31,357 nt of DNA, from the IMG/VR virus record IMGVR_UViG_3300037584_003644, positions 1-31,357 of that record. The stretch is one strand, 5' to 3'. This DNA is from a virus. Under the pieces are notes generated by a model, which saw nothing but the letters and a program-made list of their open reading frames with translations, did not search any database and was not told the origin of the DNA. Both the position numbers and the translations under genes were made by a program. The first letter of the stretch is position 1, and each line of letters opens with the position of its first letter. This document shows, piece by piece, positions 10,378-28,158 of the stretch.

Positions 10378-10538
10378 ATGGAACAGATATTAAAGTGGGT
10401 GGGGCTACATTGTTTGGTTGGGTTTCAAACCTCACTAATATAAACGAAATTTTGACAGTAATATTAACAGGCTTATCGGTTGTGTATGTTGCTGTTAGAT
10501 TGGCTAAAGAGCTAAAAAATAAAAATGAAAAAAACTAA
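10374..10538 (+). CDS. 54-residue single-membrane-segment protein, holin-like
   Basis: Read directly from the sequence: GTG at 10374 overlaps the previous TGA and TAA is at 10536-10538. The soluble start (about 1-22) is followed by one hydrophobic helix at about 26-44 ('ILTVILTGLSVVYVAVRLA') and a Lys/Asn-rich tail. It directly precedes a second small membrane protein and a spanin pair, so it is best read as a holin, antiholin or other lysis-timing component. The evidence is length, one clear membrane segment and context. Its last 14 bases overlap the ATG of the next gene. Confidence 0.55.
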   Translation: MNGTDIKVGGATLFGWVSNLTNINEILTVILTGLSVVYVAVRLAKELKNKNEKN

Positions 10539-12507: not shown

Positions 12508-12518
12508 CCATCCTTAAA

Positions 12519-12538
12519 TGTTCACTTATGTTCACTAA
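12519..12538 (+). repeat. Arm-type direct repeat, left copy
   Basis: TGTTCACTTATGTTCACTAA is identical at 12691-12710. Each 20-bp unit is itself two near-identical decamers (TGTTCACTTA / TGTTCACTAA). The pair brackets the attachment core, the layout of integrase arm-binding sites. Confidence 0.65.
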
Positions 12539-12597: not shown

Positions 12598-12690
12598 TTT
12601 TTTACACACTGTAAATAAAGAGTTTTTGCGTTTTTCCTAATGTTATTGTGTTCCATTGTTTACCATTGTGTAAATAAGTCCTTGCTTAAC

Positions 12691-12710
12691 TGTTCACTTA
12701 TGTTCACTAA
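12691..12710 (+). repeat. Arm-type direct repeat, right copy
   Basis: Exact 20-bp copy of 12519-12538, offset 172 bp, ending six bases before the integrase ATG. Binding here could also repress the integrase gene. Between the copies lie the att core and further loosely repeated AT-rich words (TGTAAATAAAG at 12609-12619 and TGTAAATAAG at 12669-12678). Confidence 0.65.
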
Positions 12711-14211: not shown

Positions 14212-14751
14212 ATGGATGAATTACTAAATAAATTAAAACAGGAACAACTTGAGTCTCATTATCACCAAGGAAACTCAACAAATACAAACAGCTTTAAAAC
14301 TTTAGGCAAATTAAACATTTTAATAATACTAATGTTTGTTTTGGGTAGTTTATTTATTTTTACTCAAAATTTAAAAAACGACGATACGGCAGAAGTTGAG
14401 AAATTTTGGAAATTTTTTTGGAAAGCTTCAGCGTATAGCGCACAAAACGATTACGAGCAGATGAATATTAATTTAAACAAAATGTTAGACTTACCTTGTT
14501 GTAATTTAAACCGTTTAAACCGCGCTTTAAATAAATCAGATGAATTTTGCTCACAATTGTCAGGAGGTATATCCTCTCGAATTGTTTTATTTGAAAACAA
14601 AAAAATTAAAACCGCAATTGATAACATGGTGAAAATTAAAAAAGATAACCCAGAGCAATGGGAAAAATTCATAAATTCTCAAAGTTTGAAACAAACAGAT
14701 TTAAGCGAAAAAAAAATAAACAAGGTGGACCCCACTTTAGGCAATACATAA
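14212..14751 (+). CDS. Single-pass membrane protein of unknown function
   Basis: 179 residues. The soluble N-terminus (about 1-34) is followed by one membrane helix at about 35-52 ('ILIILMFVLGSLFIFTQN') and a long Lys/Asn-rich domain with a 'CCNLNRLNRAL' pair of cysteines near 95-96. By charge, the C-terminal domain probably lies outside the cytoplasm. The gene is markedly AT-rich. It lies between two ribbon-helix-helix genes in the putative lysogeny control region, a place where superinfection-exclusion or lysogenic-conversion genes are common. That role is only suggested by topology and location. The first exact-core copy of the palindrome overlaps its 3' end. Confidence 0.6.
   Translation: MDELLNKLKQEQLESHYHQGNSTNTNSFKTLGKLNILIILMFVLGSLFIFTQNLKNDDTAEVEKFWKFFWKASAYSAQNDYEQMNINLNKMLDLPCCNLNRLNRALNKSDEFCSQLSGGISSRIVLFENKKIKTAIDNMVKIKKDNPEQWEKFINSQSLKQTDLSEKKINKVDPTLGNT
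14724..14736. repeat. Palindrome copy (GGTGGACCCCACT)
   Basis: It matches the element at 12 of 13 positions. It lies in the last codons of the membrane-protein gene, 35 bases before the ribbon-helix-helix gene at 14772. Confidence 0.55.
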
Positions 14752-14771: not shown

Positions 14772-14933
14772 ATGGAAACGATAGGACTAAAAATTAGCAA
14801 ACAATTGAAAATTAAATTGAATCAACACGCAAAACAAACTGACAGAAGTATTAGTTCTGTAGTTAGGTTAGCAATTGAGAGTTTTTTTGCAAAAGGTGGA
14901 CCCCACCAAAAAGGATTTTCTAAAAAAAATTAA
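14772..14933 (+). CDS. Second ribbon-helix-helix regulator
   Basis: 53 residues read from the sequence (ATG 14772, TAA 14931-14933). A strand 'TIGLKISKQL' (about 3-12) is followed by a helix, the turn 'TDRSISSVV' (about 23-31) and a second helix 'RLAIESFFAK', then a short basic tail encoded across a palindrome copy. The fold pattern is Arc/CopG-like. Palindrome copies lie before it, in its last codons and just after it, so this protein or its neighbour at 14044 is a reasonable candidate to bind them. The gene is AT-rich like its upstream neighbour. Confidence 0.6.
   Translation: METIGLKISKQLKIKLNQHAKQTDRSISSVVRLAIESFFAKGGPHQKGFSKKN
14895..14907. repeat. Palindrome copy GGTGGACCCCACC
   Basis: Exact copy within the 3' codons of the second ribbon-helix-helix gene, 43 bp from the next copy. 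That is close to four helical turns, so both would face the same side of the DNA. Confidence 0.6.
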
Positions 14934-14937
14934 CAAA

Positions 14938-14950
14938 GGTGGACCCCACC
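14938..14950. repeat. Palindrome copy GGTGGACCCCACC before the RlpA-like gene
   Basis: Exact copy in the 38-base gap between TAA 14933 and ATG 14972. It lies between a weak TTAACA (14930-14935) and an AT-rich TTTATAAAA (14955-14963), so it could block transcription of the secreted protein. Confidence 0.55.
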
Positions 14951-14971: not shown

Positions 14972-15361
14972 ATGAAAACATTAATAACAATAATAAGTAG
15001 TGCGTGTGTGTTTATGTGGGTTGTGTCTCGACCTTATGCCGAGCCTCCAACCCTTACAGCCTCTTACTATGGAAAAGAGAGTAAGGGTTTAACGAGTTGC
15101 GGAGAATATTTCGACGGGACCTCTCTAACGTGTGCGGTATGGGAGATAGACGGCAAACCAATACCCATGCACTCCCTTTTAAAACTAACGTTAGGACCTA
15201 ACAGCGTAGTTACTCGGGTAAATGATAGGGGACCAAATAAAAGACTTTTAAAAACCCGTCAAATAGACGTTTCCGAGGCAGTTTTTAAGAAGCTAAATAA
15301 CAACGACACAAGCGCGGGATTAATAAAGGTTAAGGTAGAGATTTTAAGGTTAGGAAAATGA
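14972..15361 (+). CDS. Secreted RlpA-like (double-psi beta-barrel) protein
   Basis: 129 residues from ATG 14972; an in-frame GTG at 14939 is rejected because it would bury the signal peptide. Residues 1-23 form a signal peptide ending in Ala ('PYA'). The rest is a double-psi beta-barrel with RlpA landmarks: 'ASYYGKESKGLTSCGEYFD' (Glu45), 'LTCAVWEIDGKPIP' and 'VVTRVNDRGPNKR' (Asp85). RlpA enzymes are lytic transglycosylases that act on peptide-stripped glycan. The His usually found after the LTxA block is absent, so activity is uncertain. It sits in the early/lysogeny region, not the lysis cassette. It may be an endolysin or a lysogen-expressed envelope factor. Confidence 0.72.
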   Translation: MKTLITIISSACVFMWVVSRPYAEPPTLTASYYGKESKGLTSCGEYFDGTSLTCAVWEIDGKPIPMHSLLKLTLGPNSVVTRVNDRGPNKRLLKTRQIDVSEAVFKKLNNNDTSAGLIKVKVEILRLGK

Positions 15362-15525
15362 CATATAAGGAAGCGGCAAAATATTTAGGTGTAAAGGTTT
15401 CAAGGCTTAGAACATGGGCAAGAAACAGGCAAATACCGGTTATACGTTATGGCTATAGGACGCACGTTTTTAAGCGTAGCGATTTAGATAAGTTCATGGA
15501 CGAAAGGACAGTCAAAGCAAAATGA
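15358..15525 (+). CDS. Excisionase-like helix-turn-helix protein
   Basis: 55 residues read from the sequence (ATG 15358 overlapping the preceding TGA; TGA 15523-15525). 'TYKEAAKYLGVKVSRLRTWARNRQIPVIRY' (given here only by its core, AAKYLGVKVSRLRTW at 6-20) followed by 'FKRSDLDKFM' is the HTH_17/MerR-like layout of excisionases and small winged-helix DNA-binding proteins. It could direct excision with the integrase or act as a regulator. It is the last protein gene before the structured non-coding block. Confidence 0.7.
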   Translation: MTYKEAAKYLGVKVSRLRTWARNRQIPVIRYGYRTHVFKRSDLDKFMDERTVKAK

Positions 15526-15530
15526 ATTTA

Positions 15531-15709
15531 ACCTCACCACTATCTCGCCAAACCCTCCCGGGTTTAAATCCAATGGGGGTTTATTTGGTTAACCCATTGG
15601 TTAGGTGGTGGGGTGTTTTTGGCATGGGACTAAGAGACTCAATAAATCCCGCCGCCGAGTGGCGGACACAATGCCAAGACTCATACTCTAAAGCTTTCGA
15701 GTGTGGGTC
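15531..15709 (+). ncRNA. Highly structured leader or non-coding RNA, undescribed
   Basis: Three folded modules can be drawn by hand. Module A is an 11-bp closing stem (15531-15541 with 15604-15614, two G-U pairs) holding two hairpins: 15550-15555/15560-15565 (6 bp, loop TCCC) and 15570-15577/15593-15600 (8 bp). Module B is a 7-bp closing stem TTGGCAT/ATGCCAA (15619-15625/15671-15677) holding GGGA/TCCC (15626-15629/15647-15650) and CCGCC-GAGT-GGCGG (15652-15665). Module C is an 11-bp hairpin (15678-15688/15699-15709, two G-U pairs) with a 10-base loop. The block fills the only sizeable gap between the excisionase-like gene and the recombination operon. It could be a riboswitch-like or antitermination leader, or a separate RNA. 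I do not recognise a known class. Confidence 0.55.
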
Positions 15710-15738
15710 TAAATTTATCCGAAAGGAAAACAACAAAA

Positions 15739-16593
15739 ATGGAAAATAATGCACTAACAGTAAGAGAGAACCCCGCCGAGCTTATGCGACAGTCTACCGA
15801 CGTTGCTGGAGTTTGTCGGGAGATAGTTAAAAAAACAGCAACACCAATACAAGGTAAGCAATATGTATGCGTTGAGGGGTGGACAAGTATAGCCGGGGCA
15901 CATGGTTGCGTTGCCGGAACAGAGGAACCCGTAGTGGTAGAAGGAGGTATTCAAGCCAAAGGTTATGTTAAACGCATATCAGACGGCATGGTTTTAACTA
16001 CTGGTTACGGGTTTGTGGGTGATGACGAGAAAACTTGGGCTAATCGTGATGAATACGCAAAACGCGCAATGGCACAAACTAGAGCAGTTTCTAGGGCTTG
16101 CCGTATGGCATTTAGCCACGTTGTAACTCTAATGGACGCTAACCTTGAAACAACACCCATGGAGGAAGTACCCGCCGGAGGATTTGAAAATGCAAAACCC
16201 GCAAACGTGAAACCAGTACAAACACCAACACCAACAAGGCAACCCGTTAAACGGGTGATTGAAGCAGAACAACCTAAACCGGCAACGACTGACTTCATGG
16301 AAATGAAGGTAAGGGGCGAATGGTCAACGCATGAGTTAGGGTTTGGAAAATACAAAGGGGACACTTTAGGCAAAATAGCAGACGAAGACCCTAGTTATAT
16401 GGATTGGTTAAGTAAGAGACAACCAAAACCAAAAGAGGATGGTAGCTTATGGGAAAGTGATATTATTCTTAATCGCTATTTAGAAGATTGGAGACAGGAA
16501 CACTCCGGGCAATTGAAAGCGGTTAAAGATTTAGTTGCAGAAGTTAAAGACGCACCACCTAAACAAATAGAGGACGACGACGTTCCATTTTAA
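15739..16593 (+). CDS. Phage recombination/annealing-like protein with SSB-type tail
   Basis: 284 residues from ATG 15739, which has GAAAGGA about 12 bases upstream; an earlier in-frame ATG at 15703 lies in the structured leader and is rejected. About residues 10-145 match a phage family I know by its 'RAMAQTRAVSRACRMAF' helix (109-125) and 'TTPMEEVPAG' exit, commonly next to recombination genes. About 197-252 ('ELGFGKYKGDTLGKIADEDP') resemble the small domain at the C-terminus of exonuclease X-like proteins. The last residues, EDDDVPF, are a textbook SSB C-terminal tip, the docking site for replication and repair proteins. It probably binds or anneals single-stranded DNA and recruits host partners. 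The exonuclease at 16836 is a likely partner. Confidence 0.65.
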   Translation: MENNALTVRENPAELMRQSTDVAGVCREIVKKTATPIQGKQYVCVEGWTSIAGAHGCVAGTEEPVVVEGGIQAKGYVKRISDGMVLTTGYGFVGDDEKTWANRDEYAKRAMAQTRAVSRACRMAFSHVVTLMDANLETTPMEEVPAGGFENAKPANVKPVQTPTPTRQPVKRVIEAEQPKPATTDFMEMKVRGEWSTHELGFGKYKGDTLGKIADEDPSYMDWLSKRQPKPKEDGSLWESDIILNRYLEDWRQEHSGQLKAVKDLVAEVKDAPPKQIEDDDVPF

Positions 16594-18396: not shown

Positions 18397-18571
18397 GGAA
18401 GAACCAACTACCATGGAGTCAGTACATAACATGATAGAAAAAATAGGGGATAAATTAGACTATTTACCGTTAAAAGAATATGGCAAAGACAAGCATTACA
18501 TAGAGGAACAAAGGAAGTTTTTAGAGGAATTAAAGGAGACATTTGAATGGGTTGTGGAAGATTATGAATAA
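18389..18571 (+). CDS. Small acidic helical protein
   Basis: 60 residues, ATG inside the end of the resolvase gene. Strongly acidic and helical (Glu/Lys-rich, 'YIEEQRKFLEELKETFEWVVED' region, about 36-57, with coiled-coil potential). No family recognised. The tight overlap with both neighbours supports it as a real gene. It could be a small partner protein of the replication module. Confidence 0.5.
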   Translation: MSEEEPTTMESVHNMIEKIGDKLDYLPLKEYGKDKHYIEEQRKFLEELKETFEWVVEDYE

Positions 18572-18887
18572 ACCGGGCTTAGTAAATTTAAACAGTAAAC
18601 AGAACTTACAAAAGTGTAATTACATTATTGATAAGATAGCCGATAGGTATGGGTATAAGAGGGGGGACATATTAGGGAAGAGAAGGACAGTAAAGCACAT
18701 TTGGCCAAGACACACGGCAATGTATTTGTGTCGTTTATGTGGGCTAACTTTTCAAGAGATAGGGGAGATATTTAATAAGGACCATGGGACAGCAATCAAC
18801 GCTTGTAACAATATTAGGAACCTATGTGACACCGAGCCTAGACTAGCCAAGGAGTTTAAAGAGCTAAGAGAAATGTTTAACCTATGA
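18564..18887 (+). CDS. Stand-alone DnaA domain IV-like protein
   Basis: ATG 18564 overlaps the previous gene by eight bases; a TTG at 18543 would add seven residues. About residues 14-86 of 107 look like the DNA-binding domain IV of DnaA. They carry 'YGYKRGDILGKRRT' (basic loop), 'WPRHTAMYLCRLCGLTFQEIG' (helices 3-4) and 'NKDHGTAINACNNI', matching the DHTTVLHA signature. No AAA+ ATPase part is present. In chromosomal DnaA this domain binds DnaA boxes. Here it may steer or block host DnaA, or recognise the phage origin. The replication initiator with internal iterons follows directly. Confidence 0.75.
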   Translation: MNKPGLVNLNSKQNLQKCNYIIDKIADRYGYKRGDILGKRRTVKHIWPRHTAMYLCRLCGLTFQEIGEIFNKDHGTAINACNNIRNLCDTEPRLAKEFKELREMFNL

Positions 18888-19489
18888 GCTATATAGACCT
18901 AATTAATGCTTTCTGGAGACTACACCGACAGAAGCAATTTAGTGCTAATGCGGTTGCTGTATTCTTCCATTTATTGAATATAAACAACTACCACAAGTGG
19001 GCGGAATGGTTCGAGTTAAGCTATGACAATATGGCATTAACGTTAAAACTCGATAGACGAAAGTGCATGCGTTCTGTGCGCGAACTATCGCTAAAAAAGG
19101 CTATCTCGTCGGAAAATCAGGGGGGTAGATTACCCAATAAATACAGTATTAAAAGTGCCTTGCAGTACCAAAACGGTACTACAAATGGACTACAAAGTGT
19201 ACTACAAACGGACTACAAACGGACTACAAATGGTACTCTATTAAAGAGTATAGAGAATAGAGATATAGAGGGGGAGAGGGTAAAACCCCCCACAAATAAA
19301 CCTAGGGTGTTCATGTCGGACCTAAAGGCTAAGAAGGCTATCCTAGAGAAACGGTTAAAGGCTTTAAAGGATGCAGGGTATGAGGACGCTTGGGGGCATC
19401 AGTATGCCAACAAGGAGGACAGACTCAAAGCGAGGGAACTGAAACAACAATTGAAAGCTTTGGAGGACAGAATGCTTGAAGCAGTTTGA
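18884..19489 (+). CDS. Replication initiator/replisome organiser-like protein carrying the origin
   Basis: 201 residues, ATGA overlap with the DnaA-like gene. About residues 1-90 look like the winged-helix N-terminus of phage replication organisers (lambda O/DnaD-like: 'NAVAVFFHLLNINNY', 'LSYDNMALTLKLDRRKCMRSVREL'). About 97-120 are encoded by tandem iterons, giving a Thr/Asn/Gln-rich linker. About 143-198 are a charged helix ('KKAILEKRLKALKD'). Initiators with an origin inside their own gene are known from lambda O. The protein would bind the iterons and recruit host helicase loader or helicase, since no phage helicase is seen. Confidence 0.68.
   Translation: MSYIDLINAFWRLHRQKQFSANAVAVFFHLLNINNYHKWAEWFELSYDNMALTLKLDRRKCMRSVRELSLKKAISSENQGGRLPNKYSIKSALQYQNGTTNGLQSVLQTDYKRTTNGTLLKSIENRDIEGERVKPPTNKPRVFMSDLKAKKAILEKRLKALKDAGYEDAWGHQYANKEDRLKARELKQQLKALEDRMLEAV
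19178..19230 (+). repeat. Five 11-12 bp iterons, candidate replication origin
   Basis: ACTACAAA starts at 19178, 19189, 19201, 19212 and 19223 (spacings 11, 12, 11, 11), usually preceded by GG or GT, so one copy per helical turn. An inverted repeat TACTCT...AGAGTA (about 19234-19250) and an AT-rich, purine-biased stretch to about 19270 follow and could be the unwinding element. Position inside the initiator gene mirrors the lambda origin. Confidence 0.65.
19462..19466 (+). promoter_or_regulatory. Shine-Dalgarno GGAGG that selects the TTG start
   Basis: GGAGG lies nine bases before TTG 19476 and is one of the strongest ribosome sites in the window. It supports that start over the in-frame ATG at 19509. 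Confidence 0.5.
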
Positions 19490-19892
19490 TGACGCTTGGA
19501 ATTTTAGGATGTTAGCCTTGGCAGTGGTAGAGCAAGCGGTGATTGATTACCGTGTTAGCTTAGAGGCTAGGGTTATCCATGAGGACGGTAAGGTTAGACC
19601 TATCCTAATCAAGAGGGTTGAGAGGTTGCCAACAATGTTGTTAGCCGATGAGGTTAAAACCCTCCGCCCCTTTCTATTCAAGGGAGGCTTAGAGGTGTGG
19701 CTGTTGGCCTTTAGGCTTAACGTCAATGCCTCGTCTATCCGTCGAGGTTTGAAACATATCGAAAAGAATTTTAAACGTAGTTGCCATGAGGGGTATTTAA
19801 ACGACAAGCAACAGGGACTTTATGAGTCTGCAAAAACTTCGTATGAGCCTCTTTTAAGTCCCGGGTGGGGTCCACCTAACCAATCAGAATAA
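19476..19892 (+). CDS. Putative DNA-binding late regulator
   Basis: 138 residues from TTG 19476 with GGAGG at 19462-19466. The N-terminal helices ('MLALAVVEQAVIDYRV') lead into a central region and a helix-turn-helix-like 'GGLEVWLLAFRLNVNASSIRRGLKHI' region (about residues 70-95). Proteins of this build just upstream of terminase genes are often late-gene regulators (position of lambda Q or RinA), but I cannot assign a family. A copy of the 13-bp palindrome, in reverse orientation, lies in its last codons, and a TTTGAAAC lies at 19748-19755. It is a candidate activator for the ATTTGAAAC late elements. Confidence 0.5.
   Translation: MKQFDDAWNFRMLALAVVEQAVIDYRVSLEARVIHEDGKVRPILIKRVERLPTMLLADEVKTLRPFLFKGGLEVWLLAFRLNVNASSIRRGLKHIEKNFKRSCHEGYLNDKQQGLYESAKTSYEPLLSPGWGPPNQSE
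19864..19876. repeat. Palindrome copy, reverse orientation (GGTGGGGTCCACC)
   Basis: Exact reverse complement of the element at 14895 and 14938, some 5 kb away, in the 3' codons of the putative late regulator and 19 bases before the next start. It may tie late control to the same repressor. Confidence 0.5.
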
Positions 19893-28094: not shown

Positions 28095-28119
28095 TTAGCT
28101 AGTGTTTTATTGTTAGTGC

Positions 28120-28153
28120 AAGGGGGAGGGGTAAATTCCCCCTCCCCCTTTTT
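28120..28153 (+). terminator. Intrinsic terminator after the capsid gene
   Basis: A 10-bp stem GGGGGAGGGG / CCCCTCCCCC (28122-28131/28139-28148), extended by two A-T pairs, has a 7-base loop and T5 after it. It probably limits read-through so that capsid mRNA exceeds that of downstream genes. The T-run ends five bases before the next ATG. Confidence 0.85.
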
Positions 28154-28158
28154 CTCTA

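Follow-up and report, generated by a model that had tools for sequence, protein, structure and literature searches.

The gap between an Xis-like gene and a putative annealase gene in the window (the whole analyzed stretch of viral DNA, 31,357 nucleotides, IMG/VR record IMGVR_UViG_3300037584_003644) folds into a real RNA structure, and sequence comparison indicates that the shape of its core, a three-way junction (M2) with an abutting hairpin (M3), has been preserved in two related phages, and the letters hardly at all. This leader is probably a genuine, undescribed control element of the annealase gene. The features of the locus are as follows:

15358-15525, + strand: Xis-like helix-turn-helix gene (xis), 5' neighbor of the leader (HTH_17, 1.6e-11; Tn916-Xis, 8.9e-5)
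15522-15749, + strand: 75-codon open reading frame (ORF) spanning the leader, with an ATGA overlap with the xis stop and a weak coding signal
15526-15738, + strand: structured leader, the whole gap from the xis-like gene to the annealase start (z -4.3, none of 300 shuffles as stable)
15531-15614, + strand: M1, an 11-bp closing stem around two hairpins, variable (11-bp counterpart in relative G009, none in relative G005)
15619-15677, + strand: M2, three-way junction, where the covariance model of the relatives aligns and which enters the layout test
15677-15710, + strand: M3, a hairpin of 12 bp directly adjacent to M2 and to the ribosome-binding site (z -5.2; counterparts in G005 and G009)
15711-15738, + strand: ribosome-binding site AAATTTATCCGAAAGGAAAACAACAAAA, A-rich, containing a 3-bp GAAA hairpin and conserved in both relatives
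15739-16593, + strand: putative Rad52/Mgm101-like annealase gene with an ExoX-like C-terminal domain (Pfam ExoX-like_C; weak fold match) and a product ending in DDDVPF

All called genes of the window are on one strand, and the nearest named terminases, those of Roseobacter phages, are less than 50% identical. The earlier note had placed the block in the leader of a recombination gene, and indeed the annealase gene, and nothing else, lies directly 3' of it. With moderate confidence, its product was assigned as a Rad52-like annealase, based on a predicted protein model (mean pLDDT 75) whose top fold matches were Mgm101 and RAD52, both of them weak (E 2e-3 to 2e-2, TM-scores of about 0.4 at most); its N-terminal domain had no Pfam match. 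The near-perfect palindrome AGGTGGACCCCACC had five matches with at most two mismatches, against 0.07 expected, with sites at 14723-14736, 14894-14907, 14937-14950 (+) and 19864-19877 (-). These sites are probably operators of an RHH-like protein encoded at 14772-14933; in the relatives, GGGTGGAATCCACC occurs twice just before xis. Elsewhere in the window, TGTTCACTTATGTTCACTAA is repeated at 12508-12538 and 12680-12710, upstream of the integrase gene, and tandem 11-nt GGACTACAAAYG-like repeats (19165-19232) lie inside a replication-type gene (18884-19489) that adjoins a gene (18564-18887) encoding a DnaA C-terminal domain, the repeats being a possible origin. Contigs L003-L009 and L011, from related phages, all stop close to one position, some 374-436 bp before the terminase start, as if the genome had a defined terminus there, for instance a cos site, and the window continues through this shared point upstream of the large terminase gene.

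The comparison with shuffled controls that the earlier note had proposed came out in favor of the leader, which was more stable than every shuffle: the energy of 15531-15709 was -71.3 kcal/mol (z -3.9, none of 200 shuffles as stable) and that of the whole gap about -76 kcal/mol (-75.9; z as listed above), values that are suggestive only, since some coding windows of the same phage reached similar z in a scan of the whole window. When nine other gaps were compared, only 10378-10524 and 28095-28158 were strongly structured. The computed folds, which comprise nested pairs only, contained all three modules that had been described from the letters, with outer-stem pairing probabilities of 0.89-0.98 that kept in contexts of up to 1.2 kb. 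The M1 stem (15531-15541/15604-15614) had a probability of 0.97 and its inner hairpins about 0.5 each. M2 is closed by 7 bp (15619-15625/15671-15677; 6 bp in the minimum-energy fold) and holds hairpins at 15626-15650 and 15652-15665, whereas the M3 stem (15677-15688/15699-15710) has 12 bp, or 11 when 15677 pairs in M2. The start region of the annealase gene was computed to be mostly unpaired. A terminator or attenuator at M3 was ruled out, since AAATTTATCC follows the hairpin with no T run, and the scan listed no + strand terminator there.

The view that the pairing is that of RNA rather than of a DNA palindrome held up as well. Owing to G-U pairs, M3 is far stronger as sense than as antisense RNA (-15.9 vs -8.6 in the window; -15.9/-26.7/-28.3 vs -8.6/-19.1/-12.0 across the three leaders), which speaks against a DNA-level element, i.e. 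a site of attachment, recombination or replication with inverted repeats that function in the DNA itself. The adjoining xis gene and the palindromic operator-like repeats nearby would fit such a site; however, there is no inverted repeat of at least 14 nt in 15300-15800, and we regard it as highly improbable.

Relatives were sought among contigs found through their terminase and annealase genes, and a close annealase was present in only two of them, G005 and G009 (68% and 62% identical, respectively, in the search), whose Xis-like counterparts are 73-80% identical to that of the window. Searches with Xis, with the exonuclease and in the genome collection yielded no further close relatives. In both contigs the order is xis, a 65-66-aa ORF that the window does not carry, a gap of 161 or 238 nt, AATTTATTCCGAAAGGAG and the annealase gene. 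This small ORF (L014, 1062-1259; L021, 2642-2836), located between xis and the leader, is unusually conserved as DNA (14% of third positions changed vs 36% in the annealase), and within it lies a palindrome, GTTTTCCAATTGGAAAAC, that has no match in any other viral contig. Since most annealase genes of the wider family begin at the previous ORF or within about 60 nt of it, the leader belongs to the group formed by the window and these two phages.

At the same place as in the window, G005 and G009 have a three-way junction, an abutting hairpin and an A-rich ribosome-binding site, AATTTATYCCGAAAGGA. The M2-M3 layout was found in all three minimum-energy folds, while 1.25%, 0.5% and 0.25% of the respective shuffles showed it; in G005 this holds when the fold starts after the upstream ORF, as a longer stretch prefers a competing pairing, and the stability of the G005 leader exceeds that of its shuffles only slightly (z -1.2). 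Thus, the earlier description of three modules stood as regards the M2-M3 part, kept in both relatives, but a single unit was too strong a claim, M1 being absent from G005. A covariance model built from G005 and G009 only had its best match in the window at the leader (20.9 bits, E 1.8e-5; 9.0 bits for the runner-up) and gave nothing convincing elsewhere across 87 loci, and the stems keep pairing though their letters differ. On the same leader a sequence-only model scored 4 bits and the conserved tail alone 6.3 bits, while a model of the structured body without the tail did not find it; hence, the structure contributes to the score only in combination with the tail. Between G005 and G009, double compensations were seen twice in the M2 closing stem and once in M3, together with G-U changes, a two-sequence covariation equalled by 57 of 500 shuffles. 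Since the stems of the three leaders came out of register in a plain multiple alignment, a model-based one was used; in this three-row alignment, which is fitted to the structure and in which two of the three sequences are closely related, 10 pairs were altered on both sides.

No known RNA class accounted for the leader, as had been expected from its letters: Rfam 15 at the gathering threshold gave no match in the window or in the G005 and G009 loci (weak matches were at chance level), and the only match of the tRNA scans was in an unrelated contig. A DNA search of the leaders against phage and plasmid records gave no match either. Two sequence markers were rejected, namely the pattern AAATTTATYCCGAAAGGA, which matched G009 and one unrelated coding place, and the M2b hairpin sequence CCCGGTGTGTTGCCGGG, which matched both relatives and six other contigs, the window being without that loop. 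The hairpin with loop GGTGTGTTGCC, which M2b of the relatives shares, is also present in L090, L091, L092 and L095, otherwise unrelated phage contigs, where it has longer stems and apparently lies between genes.

The statement that the block holds no credible gene went too far, because the stop-free ORF 15522-15749 spans it. This ORF could be a short gene to which the RNA structure is incidental, and such a reading draws on the ATGA overlap, on the fact that just 2.5% of shuffles were stop-free, and on a codon usage in the 2.3% tail of those that were. On the other hand, G+C is flat over its codon positions, searches revealed no relatives and no counterpart in G005 or G009, all frames of the G005 leader are interrupted by stops, and the shared structure would be left unexplained; we therefore find this reading decidedly unlikely, though one block can contain both an RNA element and a short ORF. 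Nothing pointed to an independent RNA gene either: one weak + strand promoter match lay nearby (15358-15385, inside xis), in a scan whose promoter type may not be that of the host.

The reading that we favor, and consider fairly likely, is that the annealase mRNA has in this block a structured intercistronic leader that acts in cis and controls translation or stability. It is favored by the position of the block, by the mostly unpaired, A-rich start and by CCGAAAGG, which occurs once in the window, at the annealase ribosome-binding site. An early transcript that starts close to the operator-like repeats 5' of xis would carry the leader, and the fold would hold the annealase start site open independently of upstream translation and offer a point at which translation or mRNA stability could be controlled. 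Such control would most likely be exerted by the annealase itself, a probable nucleic-acid-binding protein that, by analogy with T4 gp32, may repress its own message; we put forward this most probable specific form only tentatively. Next in likelihood, a host double-strand RNase might process the leader. Phages such as T7 have intercistronic RNase III processing hairpins, and M3 resembles them in lying between co-transcribed genes just 5' of a ribosome-binding site, but it is preceded by a conserved three-way junction, and at 12 bp the hairpin of the window is short.

In the gene 32 operators of T4 and RB69, sequence diverges while structure stays similar (PMC535899), and there, as in our three phages, a folded element lies 5' of a less structured, A/U-rich ribosome-binding site. 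The gene regulated in T4 and RB69 encodes a single-strand DNA-binding protein (PMC535899), and its place would be taken here by a Rad52-like annealase, whose autogenous binding is proposed by analogy. The T4 operator consists of a pseudoknot of about 28 nt and UUAAA repeats (PMC535899), whereas the leader described here is a larger three-way junction plus hairpin, as seen in nested folds, and no UUAAA repeats were found by eye in the A-rich annealase start region.

A different function would be antitermination like that of the HK022 put RNA, which comprises two stem-loops in about 70 nt (PMC9378689): early-transcribed M2 and M3 would bind RNA polymerase and allow read-through of later terminators without a phage protein. 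The two abutting folded modules (about 92 nt), located in a presumed early transcript downstream of an operator-like region, resemble put, and putR, situated about 270 nt past its start site, influences terminators that are 10 kb or more distant (PMC9378689), which would suit a window with genes on one strand and a strong late-region intrinsic terminator at 28121-28149 (in the gap 28095-28158, which separates the capsid gene from the following late gene). That terminator was the only one from a strict + strand search of the window, which yielded no strong intrinsic terminator in the early region; moreover, unlike put, M2 is a branched junction and not a simple stem-loop, and the conserved feature stops exactly at the ribosome-binding site. 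For these reasons we judge put-like antitermination unlikely. It is also rather unlikely that the leader represents a new class of phage RNA, whether a branched leader for self-control of a Rad52-like annealase or one acting on RNA polymerase without protein.

If the cis-acting leader is confirmed, a conserved, unclassified RNA would join the small set of phage leaders that control recombination or DNA-binding proteins, and autogenous control of annealases would become directly testable.
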